Origin: Psychroserpens sp. NJDZ02
GTDB taxonomy: Bacteria; Bacteroidota; Bacteroidia; Flavobacteriales; Flavobacteriaceae
DNA length: 64,000 nt
Direction of reading: 5' to 3'
Assembly (NCBI RefSeq): GCF_004843725.1
Contig: NZ_CP039451.1
Coordinates: 370,501 to 434,500, forward strand
In this document: one piece after another, positions 15,620 to 53,585 of the stretch
How the letters are laid out: every line of letters starts with the position of its first letter
Position numbering within the stretch: the stretch's first letter is position 1
The notes under the pieces: generated by a model
Databases searched by the model: none
The model's input: only the letters and a program-made list of their open reading frames with translations
What the model was told of the DNA's origin: nothing
Translations under genes and position numbers: made by a program

Positions 15620-15866
15620 AGTTGCTATAATCTCACTACTAAAACCCCTTTTTTTTTGCCTTTACGGAAAACCGTAAACTAGATTATAGCAACTATTGTA
15701 ACTTGGCTTTGTAAAAAATATACGTAGTTCTACGTATTTCACAACAACAAGAATAGTTGTAGGTTTGTGTAATACCGCGTTGTTAGATATTACGAATAAA
15801 AAGTCACCCTAACCTATCCTATTTGCGGGATATCTGGAATAAAAGTGATTTTATAACGAGTTAGCT
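15620..15866 (+). repeat. Family A promoter-bearing repeat, copy A1
   Basis: First of nine copies. It opens with a perfect 14-bp inverted repeat, AGTTGCTATAATCT (15620-15633) and its complement at 15681-15694, enclosing a T-run and the hairpin TTTACGG-AAAA-CCGTAAA. Next come the palindrome TACGTAGTTCTACGTA, the promoter at 15737-15767, a GGATAT-type dyad, and an ATAACGAGTT end that joins the next unit at G15860. It fills the 313-bp gap before the nuclease-like gene. Confidence 0.85.
15737..15767 (+). promoter_or_regulatory. Promoter inside repeat A1
   Basis: TTTC at 15737-15740, a 19-base spacer, then TAGGTTTG at 15760-15767 (exact TAnnTTTG). The other copies keep TTTC, N19 and TAnnTTTG: 21028-21058, 35941-35971, 44109-44139, 46415-46445, 47989-48019, 48878-48908, 50226-50256 and 51157-51187. 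The spacer sequence differs between copies but its length never does, so function is likely. Confidence 0.75.
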
Positions 15867-15898
15867 GCCATTTAACAAAAATTGCTCCGAATTAATTA

Positions 15899-17458
15899 AT
15901 GAACGATAAAACCCCACACGAAAGAGCTAAAAACAAAATTGAGTTTGAAATATCAAAAAAAATTCAATCAACAATCGAATCCTCAAAAAACGGAGGTATT
16001 GGCGAACTATTTTATTATTTACACTATTTACATGTTATAAGATTAATTCCTCAAACTCAAGACATACCAGACAGTGAATTAAATATGGTATTAATATACA
16101 ATAACCACTTAAATGATGCTTATAAATATTTAATTCAAATTTTTTATGTTAATGCAATTGATGTAGCTACACCAATAAATCTTAAAGATATTAGTATCAA
16201 TTCTGAAATTGTACAATCACTTACTAAACGAACTTTTGAGATTAATTCCAATTATGAAAATTTGACTTTCATTACAATGTCAGAAAATCTTAAAGTTTAT
16301 GGAGAAAGAGACAGATACTTACGAATGGATTTTGGAGAAGTACTCAATAATCCTAGAACAAAAAAATTCTTTGAATATAATCTGCGCATCGACCGAGATA
16401 ATGAATTCCATAAACAAAACTTGCAATTAAAAGATGATTTATTAAAGAATTTTGAAAAGGAATATCAACCTTATTCTGATTTATTTAAAAATGAGCTAAA
16501 TATCGAACTCAAGACATTTATTATGCTAATCGATTTTATAATTAATACAATCACGGAACAAATAAATAGTAATGAGAGCAACTTCGTTAATATTGATGAA
16601 GATAAGATAGATGTAAATGCACTTGGAACTATTGTTAATTTTGCCAATTCACTATTCATTGATAAGAACAAACTCTACTCTAACTTCGGAGATAATATTA
16701 AAAAAATTCTTAACAAATTAACTTTCGATATAAACTTATATAATGCAAATGAATTAAGATATAATCAAGTCGCACGACAACCAATATTTGATTTTGGAGA
16801 TAAGTATTTAATTAGTCCTGAATTATTACTTGACAGTTTATTTATTAACCTTCATTATACATTGCTTGAGGGCTTTGAATCAAAAGAACAATACAAAGAT
16901 AAATATGCATCAACCTTCCTTGATAAAATTGTTGAAGTATCAAAAAAGCATGACTTTAAAGAGGTTGCGAGAGAATTAGACTTATATCAAGGAAAAAACC
17001 AAATAGGAGATATTGATTTAATCATAAAAAATTCAAAAAATGATTTTATACTAATTGAAGCTAAAAACCATTCACTACCTTTAGATGTTTATTTTCACGA
17101 TTATCAACCAACAAGAAAAAGACTATCATATCTTCAAAAGGAATGGGAAAGAAAAGTAGCTAAAAGAAGAAAACATATTTTAATTAATCATTCGAAATAT
17201 GGAATACCTTCAAATTTTAAATATATTATTGTTTCGAAAAATCCAGAAATATTATCTCACTTTTCAGATTATCTAACTTTAAGTTTGGAAGAGTTTGACT
17301 ATTATTTAAATCAAAAAAATCTAGATATGACCTTTCAAGAAATATTTGACGAAATATATAGAATTGATGATGATAGATTTACACCTGAACAACTTGAAAA
17401 ATTGCGAACGGATTTAAGTCCAGGAACTTTTTTAGAAAGGAATAAAAACGGCAGCTAA
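15899..17458 (+). CDS. PD-(D/E)xK nuclease-like cassette protein
   Basis: 519 residues, no signal peptide. The C-terminal third has a restriction-nuclease-like core: GDIDLIIKNSKNDFILIEAK gives Asp373, Glu387-Ala-Lys389, that is a D-X13-E-X-K pattern on predicted beta-strands. The helix with Tyr-x-Lys/Arg (YLQKEWERKVAKRRKHIL) follows. The N-terminal two thirds are helical and unrecognised. Likely a DNA- or RNA-cleaving protein; with its place in an accessory array, a defence role is plausible but unproven. It lacks a modification partner. Expression would come from the promoter in repeat A1. The stop codon TAA is part of the unit's terminal arm (17450-17460). Start ATG at 15899 chosen because the cassette begins only 39 bp upstream. 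Confidence 0.7.
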   Translation: MNDKTPHERAKNKIEFEISKKIQSTIESSKNGGIGELFYYLHYLHVIRLIPQTQDIPDSELNMVLIYNNHLNDAYKYLIQIFYVNAIDVATPINLKDISINSEIVQSLTKRTFEINSNYENLTFITMSENLKVYGERDRYLRMDFGEVLNNPRTKKFFEYNLRIDRDNEFHKQNLQLKDDLLKNFEKEYQPYSDLFKNELNIELKTFIMLIDFIINTITEQINSNESNFVNIDEDKIDVNALGTIVNFANSLFIDKNKLYSNFGDNIKKILNKLTFDINLYNANELRYNQVARQPIFDFGDKYLISPELLLDSLFINLHYTLLEGFESKEQYKDKYASTFLDKIVEVSKKHDFKEVARELDLYQGKNQIGDIDLIIKNSKNDFILIEAKNHSLPLDVYFHDYQPTRKRLSYLQKEWERKVAKRRKHILINHSKYGIPSNFKYIIVSKNPEILSHFSDYLTLSLEEFDYYLNQKNLDMTFQEIFDEIYRIDDDRFTPEQLEKLRTDLSPGTFLERNKNGS

Positions 17459-18048
17459 TCGAGTAGACGGCTTCGACTAAAATAGCCCGAGTGCGCCTCT
17501 CACACCACCGCACGTACGTAACTACGTTGGTCCTTTCGTCTCTATTGCTAATAGCAATACAACTCAGAAACGTATACAGCGGTTCATAAATCATCACACC
17601 AAAGCGCTTTTCACCCAGACACTATCTTCTAATTTAGACATAGGCTACAACTTGTGCTTCAACAGTGATTTTAAAGAATTGAGTCTATGCCGAGCGCAGC
17701 CGAAGTATCAGTCTCGCGTTTTGTAGTGGTATTTGCTCATTAATCAATCACAAATAGCCTTCAGATAAAACGTCACGGTTTTCTACCCTTGCGACTTACT
17801 ACTGTTTCAATACCCCTGTCTTAATCGTAGCCGAAGGGTTACTCCTGCTCATAAGAGACTTGCACCCTCTAGATTAATTATTTATCTTTAGGTAAACTAA
17901 AAGAGGCCCATGTTGGCCACACAGACCTTATAAAATTAATGGCAAGTTTTAGCTTGCTTACGAAAATCTTTGCAGATTTTCTATTCGGTTTGTATTTGCT
18001 AAATTAGGTGCTGAAACACGCCACTAATCATATACAAACACGTTAGCT
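17450..18048 (+). repeat. Family B repeat, copy B1 (attC-like dyad plus 0.5 kb spacer)
   Basis: No gene in this 600-bp gap. The first about 80 bp (17450-17532) form an imperfect dyad ending in ACGTTGG: CTAATCGAGTAGACG near one end faces CGTACGTAACTACGTTGG near the other, with an inner CGGCT/AGCCC stem. Further on are the palindrome ATTGCTAATAGCAAT, a REP-like motif (TGCCGAGCGCAGCCGAAGTA at 17688) and a hairpin AAAATCT-TTGC-AGATTTT. The block ends in the conserved 3' half that closes with ACACGTTAG. Confidence 0.8.
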
Positions 18049-18058
18049 CCAATAAAAA

Positions 18059-19425: not shown

Positions 19426-19731
19426 GTTACTAATCGAGTAGACGGCTCCGACTAAAATAGCCGGAGTGCGCCTCTCACACCACCGCACGTAATATAAAAA
19501 CAATTACGGTTTAGTGCTTAGTCAAAGGTCGTTGCGTGTTTGTAACATCTGATTTTCCTTCGGAAAATCCTCGCATACAAACCCGCACTATTCTTATACG
19601 TAACCGTTTTACAGCATTAAAAAGATAACTCCCAGAATACAAGAACTTCAGTCAATAAGTTCAATACTTCATTTTTTTTGTAACGAAACTGTATGATTTG
19701 TCGTCCAACGAACAAATAACATTTAGAAACA
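19426..19731 (+). repeat. Family B start fused to family C hairpin spacer
   Basis: Gene-less gap. GTTACTAATCGAG (19426-19438) and about 60 bp of the family B dyad are followed by a family C block containing GATTTTCC-TTCG-GGAAAATC-type hairpin (about 19550-19569) and the tail CGCACTATTCTTATACG. Family C recurs at 36700, 46140, 48665, 49960 and 50890. An ACGTAACCG junction near 19599 probably starts the next unit. Confidence 0.65.
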
Positions 19732-20808
19732 ATGAAAAAACCAATTTACATAAAGTATCTATTAGCAATAATTACAGTCTTATCTCTTAATTTTCAATCA
19801 ATAGGCTACGCACAAGATTTAACAAAAATTGACAGTTTATTACAGGCAAAATATCCAGACAATGGACCAGGAGCAACATACTTGATTTCCAAAAACGGAA
19901 ATGTTATTTATAAAAAAGCATTTGGTCTTGCAAATCTAGAGTTGAATGTTCCTATGAAAACAGACAATGTTTTCAAAATAGGTTCTATAACAAAACAGTT
20001 TACTGCAATATCCATTTTAATGCTTAAGGAAAAAGGTAAACTGAATTTGGATGACGAAATAACAAAGTATATTCCTGATTATCCTACAAATGGAAATAAA
20101 ATAACAATACATCACTTGTTGAATCATACTTCAGGAATTAAAGATTATACTAAGATCAAAGGTCTAAATGCAATTTCACAAAAAGACCTGACTCCTACAG
20201 AATTAATTGATTTTTCTAAAAACGAGCCTGTCGATTTTGTTCCTGGAGAAAAATTCAAGTATAATAATTCAGGATACGTAATATTAGGCCAAATCATTGA
20301 AAAAATAACTGGACAGTCTTATGGTGAATTTGTTGAGGAACAAATTTTTAAAAAACTAGAAATGAAAGCCTCGCAATATGCAAGTCAGAGAAAGGTAATT
20401 AAAAATAGAGCTTCCGGCTACCAAATGAGCGATAGTTATACTAACAGAATGAATTTTAGTCTTACTTTATCGTATTCTGCAGGTTCATTGATGTCTACAG
20501 TTGATGATATGTTTAAGTGGCAAGAAGCAATAAAAAATCATCTTTTAGTTAGTAAAGAAATAACTGAGAAAGCATTTACGAACTATACATTGAATAACGG
20601 AGAGCATACTAACTATGGTTATGGATGGCATATTAAAAACATAAACAACGATAAAACTTTTGAACACGGAGGTGCGATTTTCGGATTCAAATCAATGGGT
20701 GTTTATTTCCCTGATTTAGATATTTATGTAATTGCGTTATCAAATTGCCTTTGTAATTCGCCAACCAAGATTACAAGAGAAATAGCAGAATTGGCTGCGA
20801 AAAACTAA
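19732..20808 (+). CDS. Secreted serine hydrolase, class C beta-lactamase fold
   Basis: 358 residues with a signal peptide (to about residue 28, GYAQ). All three active-site motifs of the beta-lactamase/D-alanyl-carboxypeptidase (family S12) fold are present: S85-I-T-K88, Y177-N-N179, and H312-G-G314. Proteins of this type hydrolyse esters, amides or D-amino-acid peptides in the periplasm. True beta-lactamase activity cannot be assumed, since HGG replaces KTG in many esterases and peptidases. It is typical in length and undamaged. It sits in the array without a clear complementary end pair. Confidence 0.87.
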   Translation: MKKPIYIKYLLAIITVLSLNFQSIGYAQDLTKIDSLLQAKYPDNGPGATYLISKNGNVIYKKAFGLANLELNVPMKTDNVFKIGSITKQFTAISILMLKEKGKLNLDDEITKYIPDYPTNGNKITIHHLLNHTSGIKDYTKIKGLNAISQKDLTPTELIDFSKNEPVDFVPGEKFKYNNSGYVILGQIIEKITGQSYGEFVEEQIFKKLEMKASQYASQRKVIKNRASGYQMSDSYTNRMNFSLTLSYSAGSLMSTVDDMFKWQEAIKNHLLVSKEITEKAFTNYTLNNGEHTNYGYGWHIKNINNDKTFEHGGAIFGFKSMGVYFPDLDIYVIALSNCLCNSPTKITREIAELAAKN

Positions 20809-20944: not shown

Positions 20945-21115
20945 TTTTAGCCTTTACTAAACCGTAAACTAGGTTACAGCAACTGTTGTAACTTGGTTGT
21001 TGTAAAAAACATATGTAGTTCTACGTATTTCACAACAACAAGAATAGTTGTAGGTTTGTGTAATACTGCATTACGGGATATTAGGAATAAAAAGTAATTA
21101 TATAACGAGTTAGTG
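20945..21115 (+). repeat. Family A repeat, copy A2
   Basis: Shortened copy lacking the ATATCC half of the 3' dyad, but with the TACGTA palindrome (first half changed to TATGTA) and the promoter at 21028-21058 intact. It ends in ATAACGAGTT at the next unit's GTTAGTGTCC (21109). Confidence 0.8.
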
Positions 21116-21127
21116 TCCATTAGACTT

Positions 21128-23059
21128 ATGATAAAAAAGAAAGTATTAGAAAACATAATTCAAAACAAAGTTCCCTCTATTATATTAACAAAATTAGAAG
21201 AACATGGATTTAAATATTTAAAATCACAAAAAATATTTAAGAAGATCTCAGATGGAATAGAATATCAATTGAGATTATTAACACAGCAATCAACATTAGA
21301 ATATATAGAAGAAAGTGATGAGCCAAGAATATATTTCTCCATAGCAGGTAGCATTAAATATATTGAATATGAAAAGTGGTATAAAAAAAAATTTGATGAA
21401 GAATCAAGAATGAATATTGGAACAAATGGAATCAAAGTTTATATCGTTCCAGATATTAGTGATTTTGATTCATCTTCATACTATGTTCCATCAAAGTCTC
21501 AGGCTTTCAAATCAATGGTTACAAAATCATTGATTACAGGTAAAGAAAAAGCTGAACCTCTCAATATTAACGAATATATTGAATCTATACTTTTTAAACT
21601 ACTTGATGAATTAAATTCTAAATCAAACCCAGAAGTTTTATTTGAAAAACGTGAGTTTCCGCTACAATATACTTTTTTAATGCATTTTTACGGTCACAAT
21701 GAACTTGCAAACAGCCAAATTAGTAAGACACATAAATATTATTTAGATAAAATAGATAAAGAGGAGAATCCCAAGAGAGTTATCCAAATGTTTGAGAAAT
21801 TCCTAAATGATGTAAAGAAACTTAACGGTTTGGAATTAGAAAACCCTTTTAAGCAGGCAATTAAAATCAAATCGAATCTTAATGAGAGTAGATTGAATTT
21901 TCTTCCAAATTCTGGATACTCTGAAAACCTCAGAATTGATATCAGAAATGTTGATTTAAATCAAGTCTTGTTGAATACCAACGGGGAGATTATCTTATAC
22001 ATTAATAATTCAAAGCTCTTTATCCTGAATTCAACTGGTAACCTTAAAAGCGAAATTACTATTCCGATTCAGCAAGGGTTTAATAAACTTAATTGGGAAA
22101 TACCGTTAGGATATGAAAAGAAACACAAAGTTACCTATGCCAACAATTTACTTATTTTCGATAATGGTACAGTTATAGAACTTAAAATTCCAAGACAAAC
22201 AAAAAAAAGTAAACACAAGCAAAGCTCCAATTTTAAGGATGTAAAATTTATAGATAATAATATTTATGTAACTTATCACAAAACACTTATCAAGTATTCA
22301 ATTGAAGGTGAATTTGTTGAGCAAAAAGAGTTTGAATACGTTCTTGAAAAAATGGTTCCATCAAAAAAATGGGTAATTAGTGCCAATCGAATTTTTGATT
22401 TTGACGGCAATTTAAAACATGAATATAAAGTTGGTCATGGAAACAGCCAATGGAAGATATCCAACAGTGAAGACTCAATAACTTTTTACGGCTATTCTAC
22501 AAAATCTCAATATTATGAGTTTGAAGGCAAAAGTAAAACACTTTGGGCTCACCCTACTTTTAAAAAAGGTTATAAGGAAACTTTATATTCTGATACACAT
22601 CATAATTTTGATTTGTCAACTTTGACTTTCTCCCCAGATGACTCGATTATGGTTGGAAGTGGGCATCATGGGAAATATGTAGCATGGAGAAGGAAATCTT
22701 TTGAACGTTTTGAATTAATTCCTCAGGATGAGGTTATAGCATTACTGAAACCATCTTCTATGTCAATAAGAAAAGGAGATGCTATTATTAATGTTGAAAG
22801 TAAGCCAGAAATTGTAGAAATAGACAATGTAAAATATTTAAAAAATAGAAGCAATAGTGCAGGAGAAACATTTTTTATAGAAGAAGGAGAATTCTTCGTT
22901 TTCGATATACCTTCTATAAACTTAATTACAGTATGGAATAAGGATTTTCAAAATATCTTCTACGAAAAGTCAAATGGCAGTATCGAATTTCATGGACAGA
23001 ATCAACTGACTGAAAGGAACAAAGATGAACTAATTGTATATAAAAGAAACGGACACTAA
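21128..23059 (+). CDS. Cassette protein with DUF4304-like N-terminus and beta-propeller-like C-terminus
   Basis: 643 residues from ATG at 21128; an upstream GTG at 21113 is unlikely because it lies inside the cassette-end arm. No signal peptide. The first about 90 residues (KLEEHGFKYLKSQKIFKKIS, then YQLRLL) resemble the DUF4304 group of small alpha/beta proteins. Residues about 290-560 contain repeated strand-turn-strand units (NTNGEIILYINNSKLFILNS, KDVKFIDNNIYVTYHKTLIK, STLTFSPDDSIMVGSGHHGK) suggesting a WD/propeller-like scaffold. No catalytic motif is recognised. The last bases of the gene form the unit's terminal arm GGACACTAAT. Promoter: repeat A2. Confidence 0.6.
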   Translation: MIKKKVLENIIQNKVPSIILTKLEEHGFKYLKSQKIFKKISDGIEYQLRLLTQQSTLEYIEESDEPRIYFSIAGSIKYIEYEKWYKKKFDEESRMNIGTNGIKVYIVPDISDFDSSSYYVPSKSQAFKSMVTKSLITGKEKAEPLNINEYIESILFKLLDELNSKSNPEVLFEKREFPLQYTFLMHFYGHNELANSQISKTHKYYLDKIDKEENPKRVIQMFEKFLNDVKKLNGLELENPFKQAIKIKSNLNESRLNFLPNSGYSENLRIDIRNVDLNQVLLNTNGEIILYINNSKLFILNSTGNLKSEITIPIQQGFNKLNWEIPLGYEKKHKVTYANNLLIFDNGTVIELKIPRQTKKSKHKQSSNFKDVKFIDNNIYVTYHKTLIKYSIEGEFVEQKEFEYVLEKMVPSKKWVISANRIFDFDGNLKHEYKVGHGNSQWKISNSEDSITFYGYSTKSQYYEFEGKSKTLWAHPTFKKGYKETLYSDTHHNFDLSTLTFSPDDSIMVGSGHHGKYVAWRRKSFERFELIPQDEVIALLKPSSMSIRKGDAIINVESKPEIVEIDNVKYLKNRSNSAGETFFIEEGEFFVFDIPSINLITVWNKDFQNIFYEKSNGSIEFHGQNQLTERNKDELIVYKRNGH

Positions 23060-23648
23060 TCGAGTAGACGGCTCCGACTAAAATAGCCGGAGTGCGCCTC
23101 TCACACCACCGTGCTTACATAACTAAGCTGGTCCTTTCGTCTCCATTGCTAATAGCAATATAACTCAGGAACGTATACTGCGGTTCGTAAATCAACACAC
23201 CAAAGGGCTTTTCCCCCTTGGCACTATCTTCATATTTAGGCATAGGCTACAACTTGTGCTTCTATAGTGGTTTTGAATAATTTAGTCTATGCCGAGCGTA
23301 GCCGAAGTATCAGTATCGCGTTTTGTAGTGGTATTTGCTCATCAATCAATTACAAATGGCCTTCAGATACAACCTCACGGTTTTCACCCTTGCGACTTAC
23401 TACTGCTTCAATACCCCTGTCTTGAGCGTAGCCGAAGGGTTACTCCTGCGCACAAGAGACTTGCACCCTCTAGATTAATTATTTACCTTTAGGTAAATTA
23501 AAAGAGGCCCATGTTGGGCACACACACCGTATATAATTAATGGCAAGTTTTAGCTTGCTTACGAAAATCTTTGCAGATTTTCTATTCGGTTTTTATTTGC
23601 TAAATTAGGTGCTGAAACACGCCACTAATCATATACAAACACGTTAGC
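23051..23648 (+). repeat. Family B repeat, copy B3
   Basis: Near-identical to 17450-18048 over its whole length. The core at the end of the dyad has changed from GTTGG to GCTGG (about 23127). It carries two REP-like motifs (TGCCGAGCGTAGCCGAAGTA at 23290 and CTTGAGCGTAGCCGAAGGG at 23421). An open frame at 23289-23492 is judged spurious. Confidence 0.82.
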
Positions 23649-25054: not shown

Positions 25055-25653
25055 GTTGCTAATCGAGTAGACGGCTCCGACTAAAATAGCCGGAGTGCGC
25101 CCCTCACACCAACGTACGTACGTAACTGCGTTGGTCCTTTCGTCTCCATTGCTAATAGCAATACAACTCAGGAACAAATACGGCGGTTCGTAAATCATCA
25201 CACCAAAGCGCTTTTCACCCTTGGCACTATCTTCTAATTTAGGCATAGGCTACAACTAGTGCTTAAATAGTGGTTTTGAATAATTTAGTCTATGCCGAGA
25301 GCAATCGAAGTATCAGTCTCGCGTTTTGTAGTGGTATTTGCTCATTAATCAATCACAAATAGCCTTCAGATAAAACGTCACGGTTTTCTACCCTTGCGAC
25401 TTACTACTGTTTCAATACCCCTGTCTTAATCGTAGCCGAAGGGTTACTCCTGCTCATAAGAGACTTGCACCCTCTAGATTAATTATTTATCTTTAGGTAA
25501 ACTAAAAGAGGCCCATGTTGGGCACACAGACCTTATAAAATTAATTGCTAGTTTCAGCCTATTTACGAAAGGCCTCGCAGACTTTCTATCTGTGATTTAT
25601 TTGCTAACTTTAATGCTTAAATCACGCAACTAATCTTAGACAAGCGCGTTGGT
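25055..25653 (+). repeat. Family B repeat, copy B4
   Basis: Third full copy; it fills the 724-bp gene-less gap with a dyad at 25055-25135 (ending TGCGTTGG), the ATTGCTAATAGCAAT palindrome and decayed REP-like motifs (25292, about 25428). The last 110 bp diverge from copies B1 and B3 but keep the shared ending CAACTAATCTTAGACAA, then GCGCGTTGG at 25645. Confidence 0.8.
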
Positions 25654-26911: not shown

Positions 26912-27240
26912 GCTGCTAATCGAGTAGATCGCTCCGACTAAAATAGCCGGAGTGCGCCTTTCTAACTAAAAGAAATGATAGTAGCTATTCAATCTAATAC
27001 TTCTCTTTTGATTATGTTTCATAAGATACTTTCATAACTTGCTTTTACCCATAGGGTATTCCCTCATTTTAATAATTAGGTATTTTCCCTAATGCATTGA
27101 TTCTTGAGTTTGCTCTTATATTTTCCACAGTACGACGCTCTGAGTCGTTCCAACATTGAGATTGATATTTGCAAAGCTTGATTCAACAATAAAATCACAA
27201 CACCACAACAAACAACCACTACCCTGTTTCAAAAAAAACA
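26912..27240 (+). other. Truncated family B dyad and gene-less junction to the core island
   Basis: CTGCTAATCGAG and about 40 further bases match family B up to GTGCGCCT, then similarity stops abruptly at about 26960. The remainder up to 27240 shows no gene or recognised repeat. This marks the right edge of the first array part. Confidence 0.6.
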
Positions 27241-27307: not shown

Positions 27308-27577
27308 ATGAAACTTTCAAATATAGTATTAGCAAGTCTTATAGCGTCCTCTGTTAGTGGTTGTATGGAAAATAACAAATCACAAACAGAACAACCTATC
27401 GCCCACCAAGACTCGATTAAACATATCGTGGTAACACCAAAGGATAGTGTTACTACAAAACCTAAAACTGAACCTGTTATGGTTTTAAAAGATTCTATTA
27501 CAAGACCATCTATACGTCCAAATGGAGATAAACCAATAAAACGGCTTGGTAAATGCCCTGCATGTGGGATGGGATAA
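27308..27577 (+). CDS. Candidate RiPP precursor 1 (exported, C-terminal CPACGMG)
   Basis: 89 residues. The N-terminus MKLSNIVLASLIASSVSGC is a lipoprotein-type signal (lipobox VSGC, Cys19). A low-complexity Lys/Asp/Pro/Thr linker leads to the C-terminal GKCPACGMG, where two cysteines are spaced C-x-x-C and the chain stops two residues after the second Gly. The next gene encodes a peptide with nearly the same signal (MKLSN, VLAS) and the same CxxCGMG ending, although the linkers are unrelated. Conserved leader plus conserved Cys-containing tail plus an adjacent DUF692 enzyme is how precursors of MNIO-modified peptides look. A heavy-metal-binding lipoprotein without modification is the alternative. 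Confidence 0.75.
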   Translation: MKLSNIVLASLIASSVSGCMENNKSQTEQPIAHQDSIKHIVVTPKDSVTTKPKTEPVMVLKDSITRPSIRPNGDKPIKRLGKCPACGMG

Positions 27578-27618
27578 TCCTAAATTCAAATTAACTATTT
27601 TTCAAAAAAACAACATAA

Positions 27619-27903
27619 ATGAAACTTTCAAACCTTGTACTAGCAAGTATTATAACCACATCGCTTAGTGTTTCTGCGCAAGTAGACAGCACAAAAACAG
27701 CTAGTGTTACTGTAAAAACAAATAATGAAACATCATCTAACGCAATACAGACCGTAGTCGCTAAAGACTCTACCAAACAACAAAAAAAAGAAGCAAAAAA
27801 ACAAAAAAAAGAGATTAAACGATTAACAAAACAAAAGGAACGACAACTAAAGAAACGAAATAAAAGTGAAGCGTTTATTTGTCGCGCATGCGGTATGGGA
27901 TAA
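27619..27903 (+). CDS. Candidate RiPP precursor 2 (exported, C-terminal CRACGMG)
   Basis: 94 residues. The signal peptide MKLSNLVLASIITTSLSVSA ends in an A-Q cleavage site instead of a lipobox, so the product would be soluble in the periplasm. The middle is very basic (KKEAKKQKKEIKRLTKQKER), probably helical. The C-terminus is FICRACGMG, matching precursor 1 in C-x-A-C-G-M-G. It starts 41 bp after precursor 1 and its stop TAA overlaps the ATG of the DUF692 gene (TAATG), implying translational coupling. The two cysteines and following Gly are the likely modified site. Confidence 0.75.
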   Translation: MKLSNLVLASIITTSLSVSAQVDSTKTASVTVKTNNETSSNAIQTVVAKDSTKQQKKEAKKQKKEIKRLTKQKERQLKKRNKSEAFICRACGMG

Positions 27904-28967
27904 TGAAAAATAACAAACCTAAATTAGGCTTATCTCTAATGCCTAACCCAGAATTTATAGCAGCCGTACTCCCTTTATTTGAAGCTGCTCAAGTAGAAGT
28001 TATCGAGTGGTCTTTTGATACTATACTAGACAAAACGTATCAACCAGAATGGCTTCCGCTAGTATTAAAAGAATACGGAGATAATAATAGACTCCTTGGT
28101 CATGGTGTGTATTACTCCCTTTTGGATGCCAATTGGAGCGCCAATCAAGACAACTGGTTAAAAAAAGCAAAACAAGAGACACTAACTTATAATTACACTC
28201 ATATCTCTGAACATTTTGGACTAATGAGTGCTACAAATGCACATAATGGTTTTCCGCTTCCTTTTGATTTATCTGATACGATTCTTAATATTGGTATAGA
28301 TCGCTTAAAAAAACTACAAAACACAGTACAACTAGATGTTGGTATCGAAAACTTAGCGTTAGCCTCCAATGCATCAGATATATTAAAACAAGGCGAATTC
28401 CTAAATAAACTTGTAACACCGGTTAATGGGTTTATTATTTTAGACTTGCATAATATCTATTGTCAATCAGAAAATTTTGATATAGATATGCTGACCATCA
28501 TTACTTCATATCCGCTAGATTTAGTTAAAGAAATTCATATTTCTGGAGGAAGTTGGGACCAGGATACCAGCTTAACCAAACCTATTAGAAGAGACACGCA
28601 TGATGGTTGTATCCCAGAAGCTATACTTAATATACTGCCAGAAGTACTACAACGCTGTCCTGTGTTAGAATTTATAATTTTTGAACGAATTGGCGACGCC
28701 TTTAAAGACCAAAAGGACGGTATCGACTTTAGAGCTGATTTTAACAAAATAAAAGCCATTATAGACCACACCAATTTTAGTACAACACCAAGACATTGGT
28801 CATTAAACAAACATAATCTAGACCAACCTTTAATAGATTTAGAACTAGTAAATCAACAAAATACGTTACGCCAAAACATACAATTAGACCAACCTAACGC
28901 ACATCCAGAATGGGATACTGACTTATGGAAAACAGCCACTAAGCTTTATAAAAAATGGAATAAGTAA
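27903..28967 (+). CDS. DUF692 family multinuclear iron-dependent oxidative enzyme (MNIO)
   Basis: 354 residues from ATG at 27903. Family knowledge: DUF692 enzymes (MbnB, TglH, ChrH and the bufferin enzymes) are TIM barrels that bind two or three irons and oxidatively rearrange cysteine or other residues of ribosomal peptides. Likely metal ligands are all present: His67 (GHGVYYS), His100/Glu103/His104 (HISEHFG), Glu149 (GIENLAL), Asp181/His183 (LDLHNIY), His212 (HISGG), Asp231/His233 (RDTHDG) and Glu261 (IFERIG). The first about 285 residues cover the usual domain; a tail of about 65 residues (RHWSLNKHNLDQPLIDLELV and on) is extra. No separate MbnC/TglI-like partner gene is recognised nearby. 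An upstream in-frame start at 27879 would lie inside the peptide gene and is rejected. Confidence 0.87.
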   Translation: MKNNKPKLGLSLMPNPEFIAAVLPLFEAAQVEVIEWSFDTILDKTYQPEWLPLVLKEYGDNNRLLGHGVYYSLLDANWSANQDNWLKKAKQETLTYNYTHISEHFGLMSATNAHNGFPLPFDLSDTILNIGIDRLKKLQNTVQLDVGIENLALASNASDILKQGEFLNKLVTPVNGFIILDLHNIYCQSENFDIDMLTIITSYPLDLVKEIHISGGSWDQDTSLTKPIRRDTHDGCIPEAILNILPEVLQRCPVLEFIIFERIGDAFKDQKDGIDFRADFNKIKAIIDHTNFSTTPRHWSLNKHNLDQPLIDLELVNQQNTLRQNIQLDQPNAHPEWDTDLWKTATKLYKKWNK

Positions 28968-36683: not shown

Positions 36684-36837
36684 CTTTTATTAAAACCGCA
36701 TAAAAAGAATTGTGTTTTGATACTTAATCAAAAGTCATTTCGTGTTTATAATGTCTAATTCCCCTTCGAAAAACCCTCACAAACATATCCACAACTAACC
36801 ATATAATAATACGTTGGCAGAAATAAAAAGAACCTAA
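36684..36837 (+). repeat. Family C attC-like spacer
   Basis: AACCGCATAAAAAG at about 36693 through ACGTTGGCAG at 36811 spans about 125 bp. It contains a CCTTCG hairpin remnant and the conserved tail ACAACTAACCATATAATAAT before the core. This is the most compact inter-gene spacer and within the size range of classical attC sites. Confidence 0.55.
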
Positions 36838-37782: not shown

Positions 37783-37940
37783 ATAAGTCCTTCTATTAGC
37801 ACAGTGTTTAATTAATTGATGCTTTTTGTCTACTTACAAGCATTCCTTCGGAATATTCTATCTGTAATTTATTTGCTAACTTTAGTACATAAAACATGTA
37901 ACTATTTTACATAAAACCGTACCAATTAAACTCAAAATGA

Positions 37941-40067: not shown

Positions 40068-40307
40068 GAAAATGAACAAGAAAGAAAACACCCTATATAA
40101 TAAACAGGAGTAATTAGCAGTTAACTTGAAGATAATCAACCTTTTTTATGGTCCTCAAATCTTTTAATTTGCTATACTGGCATTGAATTTTTAGTAATTA
40201 CTATCCAAAACAGATTTTTTCAATTTATGTTTTATTTACTAAATTGGGTGTTTAAACCTCGAAACATATCAAATACGTTATATGCCAACTAAAAAATCAA
40301 CCTTTAA
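40068..40307 (+). repeat. attC-like spacer of type D
   Basis: From about 40188 the block CAAAACAGATTTTTTCAATT, a hairpin with the later ATGTTTTATT, leads into TTTACTAAATTGGGTGTTTA and the core ATACGTTATATG. A second copy of the same type starts at about 41868. It aligns with the 3' half of family B, so both are one site family. Confidence 0.6.
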
Positions 40308-41093
40308 ATGAAATATTTAAAAATACTTATGCTTATGGGATTTTTATCAAGCCTATTTGGTTGCAGTCAAAAAAACAAAAAAGCAGAAAAAGAATCTGAT
40401 ATTACGACACTACCAATTACCAAACCCGTTGAAAATATCACAGCAACTATTGACCAAAAAGAAAGAAGAATCAAATCTGAAAAAATTTGTAAATCTAAAG
40501 GTATTCCCATTTATAAAAACCCTAATTCACTTTTTGTCGAATCTGAGAAAAATGTAGTATTAAGAACTAAAGACCAAGTTGTAGACAGAGCATTAGCATT
40601 ATTATATTTAGGTTTAAAAAGTGAAGGATTAGAAAAAATTCATTTAGATAAAATGGATAAAGATTTTGAAATTTCATCAAAACTAACTCCAACCGAAAAA
40701 GAATACGCGTCCGCAATACATCCAACAGAACAACAAAATACAAATGCAAATTGGAGATATGAAAGTTTACACGTGCTACTTTGGTCACTTGGTTATATTG
40801 ACACGTTAGTTTACCCAAACCAAATGTGCAATGTTTCGGATGATGTAAAAATTGTATATCAATTAGGTCCAAAAAAATTTAGAGAACAATCTAAATTAAG
40901 AAGTAAAAAAGAAATTCTTGACCAAGCAGATTTAATTTTAAGATTTGATTGGGCTTGCGTAAATGCTAGAGTAAAACAAGAAGAAGCTCCAGGAGGTTTA
41001 AATACAAGTGTCGTTTATGAAAGACATTATGCTTTAAATTGGTTGATTAAGTTTATGAATCTACATTGGGATAATGTAACAACAGATACCTAA
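40308..41093 (+). CDS. DUF4272-domain lipoprotein
   Basis: 261 residues. Signal MKYLKILMLMGFLSSLFGC with a lipobox (LFGC). The DUF4272 signature is clear: a helix KICKSKGIPIYKNPNSLF, LRTKDQVVDRALALLYLGLK, LTPTEKEYASAI, then WRYESLHVLLWSLGYIDTL and the Pro-rich end, finishing with YERHYALNWLI. DUF4272 is a widespread bacterial domain with no proven function and is often encoded near polymorphic-toxin immunity genes; being a lipoprotein is unusual. The unit has well-matched complementary ends (40277 and 41100). Confidence 0.78.
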   Translation: MKYLKILMLMGFLSSLFGCSQKNKKAEKESDITTLPITKPVENITATIDQKERRIKSEKICKSKGIPIYKNPNSLFVESEKNVVLRTKDQVVDRALALLYLGLKSEGLEKIHLDKMDKDFEISSKLTPTEKEYASAIHPTEQQNTNANWRYESLHVLLWSLGYIDTLVYPNQMCNVSDDVKIVYQLGPKKFREQSKLRSKKEILDQADLILRFDWACVNARVKQEEAPGGLNTSVVYERHYALNWLIKFMNLHWDNVTTDT

Positions 41094-41261
41094 AAAAATG
41101 GCATACAACACGCTGAAAAACAATACGGGTTTTATACTCAAACCAAAAGCAATACCACTTAATAAAGGATACCAAATTTAAATATTTAAGAAGTAATACA
41201 CCCGTAATGTAATGTTCATCCTCTACCCTACTTTTTTTTATACACCCCCGATAACAACCAT

Positions 41262-44190: not shown

Positions 44191-44335
44191 CACATTACGC
44201 GACGCACTTAAAAACACAAAATATAATGTTAGAAAATAAAAGTGGGGTGATCCAATAATCCGAAAAGCAATTGTTTTTATAAACTATTTGATAAATAAAA
44301 AACCGTTAGATACAAGTTTAAATAAAATAAAAAAA

Positions 44336-45310
44336 ATGAATTTCAACTCAACGCTTTTAACAATATCTAATACCCAATTATATATTCACAAAGATGCAGA
44401 TACTATTTCACAAAAAGCAAAATTAAGATCTGAACAGTTAGGAGTCATTGATGATAACTTATATTCTGGTCATTCTACAATGACAAATTACATCTACATT
44501 GATAGTCCCATAGATAAAATGGTAAATGTTCTTGTCACTTACGACGTTTTGTACTTTTTGGATGACTTTTTTGGAGAAGACACCAATACTGGACAATTAC
44601 CTGAAATAGATAAAATATTAGAAATATGGAAAGGTAAAAAAACACATCATTCTGAAAATAATAAAATCAATAAATTATATACAGCTATTAACTACATAAG
44701 CACTACGCTAAGAGCAGATAGCCCTGAAGATTTCTATACTAAATACACGGCGTCTGTCATTGAGCATTTATCGGCTTCATTGACAACAAAAACATTCACG
44801 ACTGTCAACGAATATATCTCTATAAGATTAATTACGGGTGGCATGTATCTTCTTATTGATTTAATCGAATACGTACATTCTATTTACATCACCCCTGCAC
44901 TCATTGGCAATAAAAACCTATATATAAAAGACCTATGTACACAATGTGCGCTAATAGGCGCGTTATCCAATGATCTGTTCTCCTATGCTAAAGAAAAACA
45001 TAGTGATTATAACCTAATCAATGCCTATTTAGTAACCAAGGAAGCCTCAGACTACAATCAGGCTGTAATTAAATCGATAGACAAAGTAAATCAAATACAT
45101 GCCGATTTTAAAACAACGATGATAAAAGCTAGACAAACGCCTTTACCTTTAAAAGATAAATTAACGGTAGACAAATATTTTCGTGCATTAGAAATTATTG
45201 TAGCTTCCTCATACCATTGGCAAAAAAGAACTAACCGCTATTACCATTCAGAAAATGTCTTTGAAGATATGAAAACCTCTACAACCGCTATTAAAAACAT
45301 GTGTCTATAA
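44336..45310 (+). CDS. Class I terpene synthase (cyclase)
   Basis: 324 residues from ATG at 44336; an upstream TTG at 44288 would add 16 poorly coded residues. Ionises a prenyl diphosphate and cyclises it in the cytosol. All landmarks of bacterial class I cyclases are visible: the Asp-rich metal motif DDFFGED (76-82), the second metal motif N212-D-L-F-S-Y-A-K-E220 (perfect NDxxSxxxE), an upstream Arg at 164 consistent with the diphosphate sensor, and a C-terminal R301-Y302 pair. Length fits mono-/sesqui-/diterpene cyclases; product cannot be predicted. No prenyltransferase or P450 is adjacent. The family A promoter at 44109 would drive it. Confidence 0.85.
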   Translation: MNFNSTLLTISNTQLYIHKDADTISQKAKLRSEQLGVIDDNLYSGHSTMTNYIYIDSPIDKMVNVLVTYDVLYFLDDFFGEDTNTGQLPEIDKILEIWKGKKTHHSENNKINKLYTAINYISTTLRADSPEDFYTKYTASVIEHLSASLTTKTFTTVNEYISIRLITGGMYLLIDLIEYVHSIYITPALIGNKNLYIKDLCTQCALIGALSNDLFSYAKEKHSDYNLINAYLVTKEASDYNQAVIKSIDKVNQIHADFKTTMIKARQTPLPLKDKLTVDKYFRALEIIVASSYHWQKRTNRYYHSENVFEDMKTSTTAIKNMCL

Positions 45311-46120: not shown

Positions 46121-46550
46121 TAAACAACACCGTATAAAACAATAACTGTTTTAGACTTAATAAAAGGTCATTCCGATTTTATTACTTCCCATTTCACTTC
46201 GGAAAATCCTCGCATACAAAACCACAACTTTCCATAGTCCTAACCGACAATCCAAACGTAACATTCCATCCTCAGCTGTCATTCAAAGCGCAGCAAAACA
46301 TCTAAAAACACACAATCTCGTGTTTTTTTGTCTGCCTTTACGGAAAACCATAACCATTACTAATCAAGCTGTTGTAACTTGCTGGTATTATACAAATACA
46401 CGAAGTTATACAACTTTCAAACGTATAAGAATAGTTTTAAGTTTGTGTAACCGAGCTTTACAATATATCAGCATTAAAAAAGCGTTATATCCTGCTATAT
46501 TTACGGGATATGAATAATAAAAGTAATTATATACCGAGTTGTACTTAATG
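46121..46550 (+). repeat. Family C spacer, REP-like piece and family A copy A5
   Basis: Order: family C hairpin CTTCGGAAAATCC (about 46198), REP-like CAAAGCGCAGCAAAACATCT, T-run and ACGG-AAAA-CCAT, then promoter TTTC 46415-46418 with TAAGTTTG at 46438-46445. The TACGTA palindrome is decayed here. Ends ATACCGAGTT at 46540. An open frame at 46320-46517 lies wholly in this repeat and is not called. Confidence 0.75.
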
Positions 46551-46629: not shown

Positions 46630-47703
46630 ATGTCCCAAATCAATAAACTTGCAAAACTTCCACCAAAAAGAGAAAAAGTAGAAACTATTGAAATTCTTCG
46701 TCAATTGAGCAAATCCTCAAATTCACTAGGAGAATTAAAAGGAATTGCTAAAACTATTCCTAATCAAGAAATGTTGATAAATGCTGTTGTCTTACAAGAA
46801 GCTAAGGATAGTTCGGAAATAGAAAATATTATTACAACACAAGATGAATTATATAAAGCTTTAGCTACAAACATAAAACAACCAACTCAAGTTAAAGAAG
46901 TTATAAATTACAGAAGTGCTATTTTTTCTGGTTTTGAATTAATTCAGAAACAAGGATTTTTAAAGCTAAAAGATATCGAAACTATTCAAAAAACCATTAT
47001 CGAAAATAATGCTGGAATTCGCTCAATGACTGGAACTGTGCTAAAAAACGATAAAACTGGAGAAATTGTCTATACACCTCCACAAGAAAAAGATGAAATT
47101 TTAGATTTATTAGGAAACTTCTTAGAACATTTTAATGTCATACATAACGATTTAAATCCACTAATTAATTTAGCTATTTTACATTATCAATTTGAAAGTA
47201 TTCACCCTTTTTATGATGGAAACGGAAGAGCAGGAAGAATACTAAATATTTTATACTTAATTACAAACGACCTTTTAGATATTCCTATTTTATATTTAAG
47301 CTCATATATCAACGAAAATAAAGCAGATTATTACCGTTTACTAAATACCGTTAACAATAAAGACGAATGGTCTGAATATATAATTTATATGCTAAAAGCT
47401 GTTGAAGTAACATCAAACAGAACTATTGAGAAAATAAATTCAATTAAAGTATTATTGGATAAAACTATAATATTTGCTCAAGAAAAAGAACCTAAAATTT
47501 ATAGAAAAGAATTAATTGAATTACTCTTTGAGCAACCTTATTCTAAAATAGAATTTGTTGTAGAAAAATTAAACGTAGAAAGAAAAGCGGCTTCACGATA
47601 TTTAAAAAAAATGGAAGATATTGGAATATTAACTTCTCAAAAAATTGGAAGAGAAAGTGTTTACGTAAATACAAAATTAATAGAAATATTAAAAAAGCAC
47701 TAA
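46630..47703 (+). CDS. Fic-domain protein (AMPylator family) with inhibitory motif and winged helix
   Basis: 357 residues, cytosolic. The catalytic loop HPFYDGNGRAGR starts at His192, matching HPFx(D/E)GNGRxxR, so it should transfer AMP or another nucleotide monophosphate to a target hydroxyl. The autoinhibitory motif S61-S-E-I-E65-N66 fits (S/T)xxxE(G/N) in the N-terminal part, making it a self-inhibited (class II) Fic. The C-terminal 80 residues (KEPKIYRKELIELLFEQPYS, LNVERKAASRYLKKMEDIG) form a winged helix, the usual architecture of single-gene Fic proteins; no separate antitoxin is needed. Besides the A5 promoter, TATTTTTG at 46595-46602 may give it a promoter of its own. The unit ends match over 12 of 14 bases. 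Confidence 0.92.
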   Translation: MSQINKLAKLPPKREKVETIEILRQLSKSSNSLGELKGIAKTIPNQEMLINAVVLQEAKDSSEIENIITTQDELYKALATNIKQPTQVKEVINYRSAIFSGFELIQKQGFLKLKDIETIQKTIIENNAGIRSMTGTVLKNDKTGEIVYTPPQEKDEILDLLGNFLEHFNVIHNDLNPLINLAILHYQFESIHPFYDGNGRAGRILNILYLITNDLLDIPILYLSSYINENKADYYRLLNTVNNKDEWSEYIIYMLKAVEVTSNRTIEKINSIKVLLDKTIIFAQEKEPKIYRKELIELLFEQPYSKIEFVVEKLNVERKAASRYLKKMEDIGILTSQKIGRESVYVNTKLIEILKKH

Positions 47704-48117
47704 GTACAATGAAGTAGACAACTCCGACTAAAATAATCCAAGTGCGTCTCTCACACCAGCGTAATTACGGCGGTTAGTAAATCCTCACACACAAAACCAC
47801 AACTTTACATAGTCCTAACCACCCAACCAAACCTAGAACTCCAACCTCAGCTATTATTCAAAACAAAGCGAAACATCTAAAAACACCCAATCTCGTGTTT
47901 TTTTTATGCCTTTACGGAAAACTGTAACCATTACTAATCAAGCTGTTGCAACTTACTGGTATTAAATAAATATACGTAGTTCTACGTATTTCACACGTAT
48001 AAGAATAGTCGTAGGTTTGTGTAACACAACTTTACAAGATATCAGTACTAAAAAGGCGCTATATCCTTTTGTATTTACGCGATATGAGTAATAAAAGCGA
48101 TTATATAACGAGTTCTA
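47697..48117 (+). repeat. Family B dyad (short), family C, REP-like piece and family A copy A6
   Basis: The family B dyad 47697-47777 is only about 80 bp and ends in CGGTTAG. It is followed by a family C tail (CACAACTTTACATAGTCCTAA), REP-like ACAAAGCGAAACATCT, and A6 with promoter 47989-48019. Ends ATAACGAGTT at 48114. No gene. Confidence 0.8.
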
Positions 48118-48578: not shown

Positions 48579-49003
48579 GCCAGCATACAATCGAGTAGAC
48601 GGCTCCGACTAAAATAGCCGGAGTGCGCCTCTCACACCACCGTACGTAAGCAACTACGTTGGCTCGAAAATCCCCGCATACAAAACCACAACGTTCCATA
48701 GCCCTAACCAGCAATCCAAACTTAACATTCCAACCTCAGCTGTTATTCAAAGCGCAGCGAAACATCTAAAAACACTCAATCTCGTGTTTTTTTTATGCCT
48801 TTACGGAAAACCGTAACCATTACTAATCAAGCTGTTGTAACTTAGCGGTATTAAATAAATATACGTAGTTCTACGTATTTCACACGTATAAGAATAGTTG
48901 TAGGTTTGTGTAACAGAACTTTACAATATATCAGTACTAAAAAGGCGCTATATCCTTTTGTATTTACGGGATATGAGTAATAAAAGTGATTATATAACGA
49001 GTT
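48579..49003 (+). repeat. Family B dyad, family C, REP-like piece and family A copy A7
   Basis: Dyad 48580-48662 ends in CTACGTTGG, followed directly by a family C tail (CTCGAAAATCC, CACAACGTTCCATAGCCCTA), REP-like CAAAGCGCAGCGAAACATCT at about 48756 and A7 with promoter 48878-48908. This is the clearest example of the full B-C-REP-A composite. Confidence 0.82.
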
Positions 49004-49931: not shown

Positions 49932-50352
49932 TAAACAACACCGTATAAAACAATAGCTGTTTTAGGCTTAATAAAAGGGCATTCCTATTTTATTACTTCC
50001 GATTTCACTTCGGAAAATCCTCGCATACATAACCACAAGTTTCCATAGCCCTAACCGGCAGTACAAACTTAACATTCCAACCTCAGCTGTCATTAAAAGC
50101 AAAGCGAAACATCTAAAAACACCCAATCAAGTGTTTTTTTTTATGCCTTTACGGAAAACCGTAATCATTACTGATCAAGCTGTTGTAACTTGCTGGTATT
50201 ACATAAATATACGTAGTTATGCGTATTTCACACGTATAAGAATAGTTGTAGGTTTGTGTTATATCATTTTACTAGAATATCAATAATAAAAAGACATCAT
50301 ATACAGTTATATTTGAGGGATATTAGTAATAAAAGTGATTATATAACAAGTT
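49932..50352 (+). repeat. Family C, REP-like piece and family A copy A8
   Basis: Copy of the spacer at 46121 (AACACCGTATAAAACAATA), with CTTCGGAAAATCC hairpin, REP-like AAGCAAAGCGAAACATCT and A8. In A8 the palindrome is changed to TACGTAGTTATGCGTA while the promoter (50226-50256) is intact. Ends ATAACAAGTT at 50352. Confidence 0.78.
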
Positions 50353-50845: not shown

Positions 50846-51282
50846 ATTATTGACAAATTAACAGGTGCTAAAACCGTATAAAAAATTGCTAGTTTTAGGG
50901 TAACCAAAGTCAGTTGTTCGTTTGCTAGCTTCTAATTCTCCTTCGTAAATCCTCGCATACAAAACCACAACGTTCCATAGCCCTAACCGGCAATCCAAAC
51001 GTAACATTCCAACCTCAGCTGTCATTCAAAGCGCAGCGAAACATCTAGAAACACCCATTCACGTGTTTTTTTTACGCCTTTACGGAAAACCATAAAAATT
51101 ACTAATCAAGCTGTTGTAACTTGTTGGTATTAAATAAATATACGTAGTTCTACGTATTTCACACGTATAAGAATAGTCGTAGCTTTGTGTAATAGAGCCT
51201 TACAATGTATCAGTAATAAAAAAGCCTTATATCCTTTTGTATTTGCGGGATATGAGTAATAAAAGTAATTATATAACGAGTT
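50846..51282 (+). repeat. Family C, REP-like piece and family A copy A9
   Basis: Begins with the arm GGTGCTAAAACCG (50864). Family C tail at about 50950-50995, REP-like CAAAGCGCAGCGAAACATCT (about 51027), then A9 whose -7 box reads TAGCTTTG (51180-51187). Ends ATAACGAGTT at 51282. Confidence 0.78.
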
Positions 51283-51310
51283 GTAGTGCATTACCAAAAA
51301 AAATAAAAAA

Positions 51311-52657: not shown

Positions 52658-52660
52658 AGA

Positions 52661-52845
52661 ATTACGTACTACAATCGAGTAGACAGTTCCAACTAAAATA
52701 ATCGAAGTAAGCCTCTCACACCACCGCACGTAAGCAATAACGTTGGTCCTTTCGTCTCTATTACTACTAGCAATAGAACTTACGAACGTATACGGCCATT
52801 CGTAAATCATCACACACAATCCCGCAACCATCATTAAACACAACG
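52661..52845 (+). repeat. Family B dyad (divergent) and short spacer
   Basis: ATTACGTACTACAATCGAG (52661) through ATAACGTTGG (52746) is the attC-like dyad. The next about 100 bp keep part of the B body and end with CATTAAACACAACGTTATC. At 185 bp this is the shortest complete spacer with a family B dyad. Confidence 0.72.
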
Positions 52846-52862
52846 TTATCAATTATTTATAA

Positions 52863-53585
52863 ATGAAAATTAAAAAGTTTTTAAAGAAAAATAAAATTTA
52901 TTTTAATGTACTAACAACTTTATTATTAGGCTTGATGGCAATAATTGTTTCGTATAATTCAAATGTAATAGCCAATGAACAAAAACAGATGAGCTATTAT
53001 GAGAACACGCCAGATTTTAATTTATCACAAGAAATCAAAAGAGATTCGACCGGTTACATTAGAGAAATAGCAGTTAAAGTATCTAAGTTTGGAGGTAAAG
53101 CAAAAAACATTTCCATAAGAATCAAAAGTTATGCTCACTTCGAAATTATTGATCAACAGAATAATAAATTGAATAAATATATTCACTTAACGGGATGTTT
53201 TAATGAGAGCTATAGAACTGGAGAAAACAAGGGAGATATTAGATTACTAAAAGGTTTTGATAACAATATAAAATTTGATGAATTTACAAGAGTAATGAGC
53301 ACAGAATTAATAAAAAACGGATATACTCCATTGCTTATTAACCCTTTATTTATCATAAGAATCAATTATACAGATTTTCTTAATAATAAGAAAGAAGAAT
53401 ATTATGATGTCAGTTTTGTTGACGGTGTCTTAATTGAAAAAAGTGATTTCAAAGTTGAGTTATTTGAAAATAAAAAACTCTCATCCCAATCTATTCCGAT
53501 TACAAATTTAGATGCGTTTAAACTTGAAAGCTATTTAAAAATTATAGTAAATAAAAATAATGACGCTAACAACCTAGATATTTAA
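52863..53585 (+). CDS. Membrane-anchored cassette protein
   Basis: 240 residues with one N-terminal transmembrane helix (about 12-32, YFNVLTTLLLGLMAIIVSYN); the rest is exported or cytosolic beta-rich (EIAVKVSKFGGKAKNISIRI, FIIRINYTDFLNNKKEEYYD). No family recognised. Last gene of the array; downstream a REP-like AAAGCGAAACATCC (about 53625) remains but no family A or B copy. Confidence 0.58.
   Translation: MKIKKFLKKNKIYFNVLTTLLLGLMAIIVSYNSNVIANEQKQMSYYENTPDFNLSQEIKRDSTGYIREIAVKVSKFGGKAKNISIRIKSYAHFEIIDQQNNKLNKYIHLTGCFNESYRTGENKGDIRLLKGFDNNIKFDEFTRVMSTELIKNGYTPLLINPLFIIRINYTDFLNNKKEEYYDVSFVDGVLIEKSDFKVELFENKKLSSQSIPITNLDAFKLESYLKIIVNKNNDANNLDI

Follow-up and report, generated by a model that had tools for sequence, protein, structure and literature searches.

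An integrase-less cassette array in Psychroserpens sp. NJDZ02 probably forms part of an integron-type system widespread in Flavobacteriaceae

A cassette array with complementary unit ends

The window analysed here, i.e. the whole stretch of 64,000 nucleotides at bases 370501-434500 of the single-contig genome (4,319,537 bases) of Psychroserpens sp. NJDZ02, carries at 15828..53585 (window positions) a row of genes whose main open reading frames (ORFs) lie on the + strand. An initial annotation, made from the letters alone, had described it as an integron-like cassette array with self-complementary unit ends and no integrase, perhaps a variant system. The evidence below supports cassettes with R′/R″-type arms and a variant system in Bacteroidota, and we read the window as belonging, as an orphan array, to a chromosomal system of integron type that is widespread in Flavobacteriaceae, with a probability of roughly 0.88. 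The features of the array are as follows, R′ being the box at the gene start, R″ the box at the gene end, RT the reverse transcriptase and CALIN a cluster of attC sites lacking integron integrases.

15828..53585, + strand: CALIN-like orphan array of cassettes with 18 unit starts, 6 of which match their own end
15860..17459, + strand: cassette, R′ GTTAGCTGCC, R″ GGCAGCTAAT at 17450
17458..17922, - strand: RT-less group II intron at R″, kin to the genome's IIC introns
17923..18044, - (bottom) strand: attC-like site, 114 bits
18042..19432, + strand: cassette with SUKH-1 gene, start and end mismatch each other
19433..19608, - strand: intron 3′ tail, then attC-like site (19487-19608, 74.6 bits)
19606..20808, + strand: cassette gene, PF00144 serine hydrolase family, no matching end found
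21079..21111, + strand: attI-like stretch (TATATAACGA) ahead of a cassette start
21109..23060, + strand: cassette, 648-aa ORF, R′ GTTAGTGTCC, R″ GGACACTAAT at 23051
23059..23523, - strand: RT-less group II intron at R″
23524..23645, - strand: attC-like site, 127.2 bits
23643..25061, + strand: second copy of the SUKH cassette, start and end mismatch each other
25062..25527, - strand: RT-less group II intron at R″
25528..25650, - strand: attC-like site, 101.2 bits
25648..26918, + strand: cassette, erythromycin-esterase-like protein (PF05139), intron tail next, at 26919
36693..36815, - strand: attC-like site, 50.9 bits
36838..37782, + strand: cassette gene, weak JukA-like defence match (46 bits)
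37799..37921, - strand: attC-like site, 45.5 bits
38940..39064, - strand: attC-like site, 69.2 bits
40277..41109, + strand: cassette with DUF4272 gene, R′ GTTATATGCC, R″ GGCATACAAC at 41100
46127..46248, - strand: attC-like site, 41.7 bits
46538..47710, + strand: cassette encoding a Fic protein of the SoFic type (358 bits in PADLOC), R″ at 47697, then an intron tail at 47709
48590..48664, - strand: intron 3′ tail, after an R″-like end
49938..50059, - strand: attC-like site, 38 bits
50350..50872, + strand: cassette, R′ GTTAGCACC, R″ GGTGCTAAA at 50864
50871..50991, - strand: attC-like site, 45 bits
51280..52675, + strand: cassette, R′ GTTGTAGTGC, R″ GTACTACAAT at 52666, intron tail at 52674

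All six start/end pairs that the initial annotation had pointed out were recovered at their positions, with 9/10, 9/10, 9/10, 12/14, 8/9 and 8/10 bases agreeing between a start and its reverse-complemented end, and they share one context, namely a spacer with both ends conserved and the variable boxes just outside it. The idea that each unit start matches its own end was found to hold far above chance in the own genome and in relatives. Across ten clusters of the own genome, where unit starts were defined by the conserved 3′ end of the spacer, the start matched the unit's own end exactly over 8 bases in 34 of 63 units (2.05 expected with swapped starts) and over 7 bases in 13 of 63 (6.35 expected); the mean match was 7.0 versus 5.23 expected, with 5.78 as the largest of 10,000 permutations, in a set that is somewhat biased, its start profile having been built from 34 seeds found via the complementarity itself. 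The relatives are free of this seed bias, because their sites were found by an attC profile that contains neither variable box: six related genomes yielded a match of at least 7 bases in 169 of 214 units versus 9.8 expected (mean 6.88 versus 3.27, largest of 10,000 permutations 3.65).

The boxes also have a regular inner structure. In the relatives, 133 units had a perfect 8-base run; next to it an A in R′ stood against a C in R″ in 133 of 133, and the two bases beyond paired again in 131 of these 133. Such a C.A mismatch on the top strand is a G.T wobble on the bottom strand. GTT followed by a purine opened 98% of 318 R′ boxes, only 12 of which fit the GTTRRRY consensus.

The spacer cores fold as attC-like sites on the bottom strand

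The core of the spacers is an attC-like site of ∼123 nt. In 23 aligned sites out of 24, a 16-bp L stem was paired in 96.5% of the cells, while sliding the partner by 1-3 columns reduced pairing to 28-55%; seven pairs had changed on both sides, in 32 cells versus a shuffled mean of 10.0. Two weaker measures stood out less, namely the number of double-change pairs, reached by 15 of 500 shuffles, and that of further pair types, reached by 90 of 500. Two wobble pairs of the stem were constant, in 23/23 and 22/23 sites. With DNA parameters the bottom strand was the more stable one in all 24 sites (mean difference 1.9 kcal/mol), as against 45% of 300 control windows. By computation, R″/R′ and L″/L′ arms of attC type with bottom-strand folding are present, and strand identity is probably set by the conserved G.T wobbles that exist on the bottom strand only. 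Within the window, the attC model gave ten strong and two weak matches on the bottom strand, one of the weak ones (E 0.011) at 40208-40279 before the cassette 40277..41109, and on the other strand one weak match overlapping a strong one.

A tyrosine recombinase elsewhere in the chromosome precedes an attI-like site

The reported absence of an integrase is true of the window, among whose scanned proteins no integrase family was detected, and not of the genome, where a 393-aa tyrosine recombinase with a following array is encoded at 1,217,661-1,218,839, 0.78 Mb downstream on the same chromosome. A cassette begins 33 bp after the gene; its products are a BanI-type restriction enzyme, a DNA methylase and a protein with a helix-turn-helix, and its end matches its own start over 7 bases. 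Among named relatives, the one nearest to the integrase comes from Olleya namhaensis (91% identity). Residues R231, K256, H320, R323, H346 and Y355, which we take to be the catalytic ones, were invariant in 22 aligned homologs, and residues 1-95 are predicted to form a separate alpha/beta part, which matches no Pfam family.

Several comparisons set this enzyme apart from IntI. The IntI insertion of ∼40 residues was present in 10 of 10 IntI proteins of the phylum and absent from all 23 aligned integrases of this kind and relatives (L079 and L082, which offered no suitable ORF, were left out of the alignment). Against the IntI model TIGR02249 the integrase scored 195.6 bits (cut-off 265) in two stretches with positions 179-237 missing, and 2a3v aligned to the integrase displayed the same gap; the own genome holds no IntI above the TIGR02249 cut-off. 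The best NCBIfam family was NF040815, archaeal XerA, with 203 bits (cut-off 220). An AlphaFold2 model (mean predicted local distance difference test score 78, predicted template modelling score 0.46) had XerA, IntI4, XerH and lambda-type enzymes as its apparent structural neighbours, and the structure search with this model gave no lead on the N-terminal region. A tree of 36 recombinases placed IntI in one clade, with 13 of 33 inner branches open, and left the flavobacterial integrases as one clade or several. The integrase possibly originated independently from IntI.

Linkage was examined in the best 80 of more than 580 integrase loci, from named relatives, 4 of which had too little sequence for counting attI. 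An attI-like motif (TATAAY-N-N-GTT within 170 nt after the gene) was found in 59 of the remaining 76 loci compared with 6 of 1520 random windows, and 52 distinct first cassette starts stood behind the integrases. Around the 80 genes, 132 attC sites lay downstream on the array strand, one downstream on the other strand and one upstream, although the upstream sequence was more than twice as long as the downstream one; 26 of the 36 loci with at least 3 kb downstream had attC sites. Contigs ended within 3 kb downstream in 44 of 80 loci and upstream in 2, a concentration expected if repeats follow the integrase gene. Two of the arrays after an integrase comprised 43 sites over ∼54 kb with all gaps ≤3.9 kb (G023), and 60 sites over 86 kb with one gap of 23.7 kb (G001). 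These comparisons point to an attI site beside the integrase with cassettes following.

Many cassettes at a distance from the integrase also have an attI-like stretch (TATATAACGAGTT or a related one) in front of them, at 15828-51280 of the window and in the 4240- and 3490-kb clusters, which would suit a copying of attI together with cassettes.

Integrase and attC sites co-occur in Flavobacteriaceae

Site numbers per genome are lower bounds, as at most 89 scored candidates per genome were counted in 40 relatives and at most 17 per genome in 199 family genomes, the latter representing 198 genera, i.e. nearly one genome per genus. Among the 40 relatives, 24 had both the integrase (E ≤ 1e-30) and attC sites, 2 the integrase alone, 3 attC alone and 11 neither. 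Across the family, attC sites were present in 167 of 199 genomes and strong integrase matches (E ≤ 1e-60) in 123, with both in 116, the integrase only in 7, attC only in 51 and neither in 25. Fisher tests of the co-occurrence gave p values of 1e-5 (40 genomes) and 7e-7 (199 genomes). A class-wide draw yielded integrase matches in 15 of 198 genomes, including the own genome and another family member.

Could the cassettes be moved by another enzyme? The R″/R′ arms, the bottom-strand folding and the introns at R″ (see below) all follow the logic of known integrons, and TIGR02249 is exceeded in 105 of 395 genomes of the phylum, as would suit a canonical integron or CALIN whose cassettes an ordinary IntI from elsewhere had moved. 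We regard this as quite unlikely, because no IntI lies above the cut-off in the own genome, among the over-cut-off phylum matches listed only G075 belongs to the same class, the GTTRRRY fit is rare, and the local integrase without the IntI insertion is nevertheless followed by the attI-like site and by attC sites at the frequencies given above. Unlikelier still is that a housekeeping Xer or other recombinase moves them and the integrase family (P0001) merely stands beside the arrays. Catalysis by the integrase is something we infer, and one genome has many attC matches and no integrase match, as this alternative would have it; against it stand the recurring gene-attI-array order, the invariant residues and the statistical co-occurrence of integrase and attC.

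A plasmid-borne version was observed in Chryseobacterium (Weeksellaceae) on NZ_CP041688.1 (locus L218), where an integrase relative of 38.6% identity is followed by three attC matches; by eye, three cassettes had 7-base matching ends, and the cassettes are single-gene. R″ is occupied there by a group II intron whose 3′ end is the same, and an IS110 transposase is present.

Group IIC introns occupy R″ and lengthen the spacers

The initial annotation had found several spacers to be far longer than classical attC sites. The sites themselves are of ∼123 nt and have been lengthened by group IIC introns or intron tails, and by the attI-like stretch that precedes many unit starts. The conserved sequence after many R″ ends proved to be the reverse complement of a group II intron 3′ end, and the introns in the spacers are mostly RT-less and lie on the strand opposite to the cassettes; for that at 17458..17922, the 3′ end was set by motif and the 5′ end by comparison with RT-bearing copies. 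The genome encodes six RTs of 436 aa. Five RT-bearing copies all start with GTGTGCCC and end with CTACTCGAT, and have an attC-like 5′ exon and the R″ box as the 3′ exon. By score the RT comes nearest to GsI-IIC, an enzyme of the IIC class (307 bits versus 122 for LtrA). Searches with Rfam returned nothing in the window at the gathering threshold, nor in 13000-56000 at E ≤ 1; the RNA of one RT-bearing copy elsewhere matched group-II-D1D4-3 with 131 bits, so the window introns appear too short or divergent for these models. As a group, these introns combine a IIC-class RT, a ribozyme and insertion into the bottom-strand R″.

Intron-filled and empty versions of the same cassette were found in this genome and in relatives, and the empty site in an intron-free cassette of a relative reads GGGCA^ACACCG on the top strand and GGTGT^T on the bottom strand. 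According to passages of PMC7923331, insertion of group IIC-attC introns takes place at the bottom-strand R″ (TTGT/T), opposite to the cassettes. The introns here share with them the RT nearest to GsI-IIC, the bottom-strand R″ insertion at TGT/T and the opposite orientation; they differ in being mostly RT-less where the length is known, in an extended domain V tip and in host sites of a new type. Their choice of R″ gives independent support that the sites behave as attC.

In the own-genome stretches examined there were 68 intron tails, 39 of them with a recognisable intron 5′ end within 2.2 kb (an RT in 5 of the 39), and 35 of the 68 with a complementary unit start ≤4.5 kb upstream. This frequent company could suggest that group II introns or insertion sequences had themselves made the repeats and complementary ends, with no cassettes involved. 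We hold that to be highly improbable, as complementarity is equally strong at intron-free sites of the relatives, in which the box and the attC core are direct neighbours, the filled and empty copies indicate that the intron occupies a pre-existing site, and an intron touches R″ only, so a matching R′ hundreds to thousands of bases off cannot be its product.

Three further observations concern these insertions. The tip of domain V was extended by ∼50 nt in 39 of the 68 copies (21 normal, 8 neither), which is unusual for a catalytic domain of near-fixed length. A 74-nt tail was considered as a fixed truncated unit and rejected, since most copies are longer; short tail matches resulted from a truncated query. 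Lastly, a ∼1.8-kb element with a 528-aa transposase-like ORF, presumably IS1182-like, lies beside R″ in attC sites of the own-genome clusters 950, 1205, 3240 and 3490 kb and of G005, in copies ∼93-96% identical.

Cassettes appear to move as units

A 695-bp stretch, 99.9% identical between two species, begins exactly at GTT after unrelated upstream DNA, and in the own genome the same cassette occurs in two arrays with 93.9% identity and homology from GTT onward. With families of more than 8 members excluded, a neighbour was shared by 2 of the 12 homologous cross-genome pairs whose neighbours were known, and the upstream one by 2 of 20 within-genome pairs. Of 73 own cassettes, 61 had their longest ORF on the array strand and 9 on the opposite one, with 3 lacking any ORF of 50 aa; of the 214 in relatives, the numbers were 131, 12 and 71. 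The comparisons of shared stretches and neighbours indicate that cassettes move as units. A fixed row of genes with repeated terminators and no mobility, to which the folding spacers and the T-runs in some of them would be suited, has a virtually negligible chance given the rarely kept neighbours, the near-identical stretch in another context and species, and the start-specific complementarity.

A ∼355-bp cassette starting with GTT(A/G)CCTACAAT was counted 40 times by pattern (25 in G001, 3 in G003, 12 in G009), in arrays at L094, L105-L110 and L122-L124. Two copies checked had no ORF above 25 aa, and it is possibly a promoter or RNA cassette.

Proposed mechanism and points against it

In the orphan-array reading that we prefer, the 393-aa tyrosine recombinase is encoded beside the attI-like site and transcribed toward the cassettes. 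Cassettes would be circular and carry a folded single-strand site made of R″ from the gene end, R′ from the gene start and the 16-bp L stem, and each unit start would complement its own end because the two are the R″ and R′ boxes of one such site. Recombination at GTT would insert or remove a cassette, and we infer that it would be catalysed by this integrase, with the bottom strand as substrate and the circle as intermediate. Cassettes would also build up in dispersed arrays like that of the window, and group IIC introns target the same bottom-strand sites and thereby lengthen the spacers.

A number of observations weigh against this reading. The evidence for recombination is comparative and drawn from sequence, and nearly all arrays detected in the chromosome are distant from the integrase, which is therefore assumed to act in trans. 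The attI motif was missing in 17 of the 76 named loci, and by eye no attI-like end was evident after the weaker homologs L072, L078, L081, L082, L085 and L086. A matching end in the spacer exists for 6 of 18 window unit starts, the other 12 having exact runs of 4-7 bases at places other than unit ends, and 45 of 214 units in the relatives fell below 7 bases. The co-occurrence counts are confounded by shared ancestry; G008 has at least 32 attC matches and no integrase match at 1e-30, G029 and G037 have an integrase match and no attC match, and 7 of the 123 integrase-bearing family genomes are without an attC match, by a model tuned to the own genome. The 12 cross-genome pairs derive from about four cassette families, and only 4 of 437 high-scoring segment pairs between genomes started ≤3 nt from a known GTT on both sides, in part because similar attC sites lengthen the alignments. 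As its 12 starts without a matching own end indicate, the window is a partly decayed, integrase-less (CALIN-like) piece of a multi-array cassette system.

Relation to known systems

Sedentary chromosomal integrons with IntI (Vibrio type) and CALINs resemble the present system in having an integrase gene, an adjacent primary site and long one-direction arrays, as well as the within-cassette R″/R′ match, bottom-strand folding and orphan arrays. In contrast to the IntI integrons, the present system has an integrase devoid of the IntI-specific domain and extended at the N-terminus by ∼95 aa that match no Pfam family; most of its R′ boxes depart from GTTRRRY, its G.T wobbles are constant, and several dispersed arrays occur per chromosome, with attI-like stretches repeated inside them. 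The system acts like an integron, yet stands outside the IntI-based family by two features, the integrase domain and the R′ consensus. Archaeal XerA (NF040815) gave the best NCBIfam score and the first solved-structure neighbours, whereas the integrase stays below its cut-off (203 versus 220 bits); we know of no attI or cassette context of XerA. We further propose, with moderate confidence, a second integron platform, which would combine a tyrosine recombinase devoid of the IntI domain and bearing another N-terminal domain with bottom-strand hairpins whose strand identity the invariant G.T wobbles would encode, serve as the main gene-capture device of Flavobacteriaceae, and have plasmid forms in neighbouring families.

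According to passages of PMC3607928, the integrase gene of Treponema integrons is transcribed toward attI, in the cassette direction, an orientation shared by the system here; these are described there as intI systems, whereas the present integrase is without the IntI insertion. The additional domain of IntI is said to be essential for integron function in the relevant passage of PMC8138268. Cassette arrays on record for Bacteroidota are few: besides In0 elements, the passage of PMC9024848 on IntegronFinder 2.0 results gives for Bacteroidetes no more than a single complete integron, that of Salinibacter ruber, and a passage of PMC9892861 mentions a CALIN of a Polaribacter phage predicted with HattCI and Infernal. 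No report of this cassette system was found among open-licence PMC papers, the scope of the search, with subscription papers and preprints outside it.

With attC-type sites in 167 of the 199 family genomes, a large flavobacterial pool of cassette genes, including restriction-modification and Fic-type defence genes, has apparently gone uncounted so far; Bacteroidota dominate many marine and host communities. The system also raises the question of how integron recombination works without the IntI domain, and would allow a structural comparison of two kinds of integrase that solve the same folded-DNA problem.

Other genes and features of the window

The ORF at 15899-17458, within the cassette 15860..17459, encodes 519 aa and matches no Pfam family. 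The PF00144 protein (19606..20808) came nowhere near the cut-off of any named class C beta-lactamase model. For ten window proteins PADLOC gave one strong match, the SoFic one, and some weaker matches. A possible locus for a ribosomally synthesized and post-translationally modified peptide lies within the array span at 27308-28967, with two short, similar ORFs as candidate precursors upstream of an MbnB/TglH/ChrH-like modification gene, and a terpene synthase-like gene stands among the array genes at 44288-45310. Further on, at 61690-61993, a tandem repeat with units of 54-114 bases lies inside the span of an 860-aa ORF.

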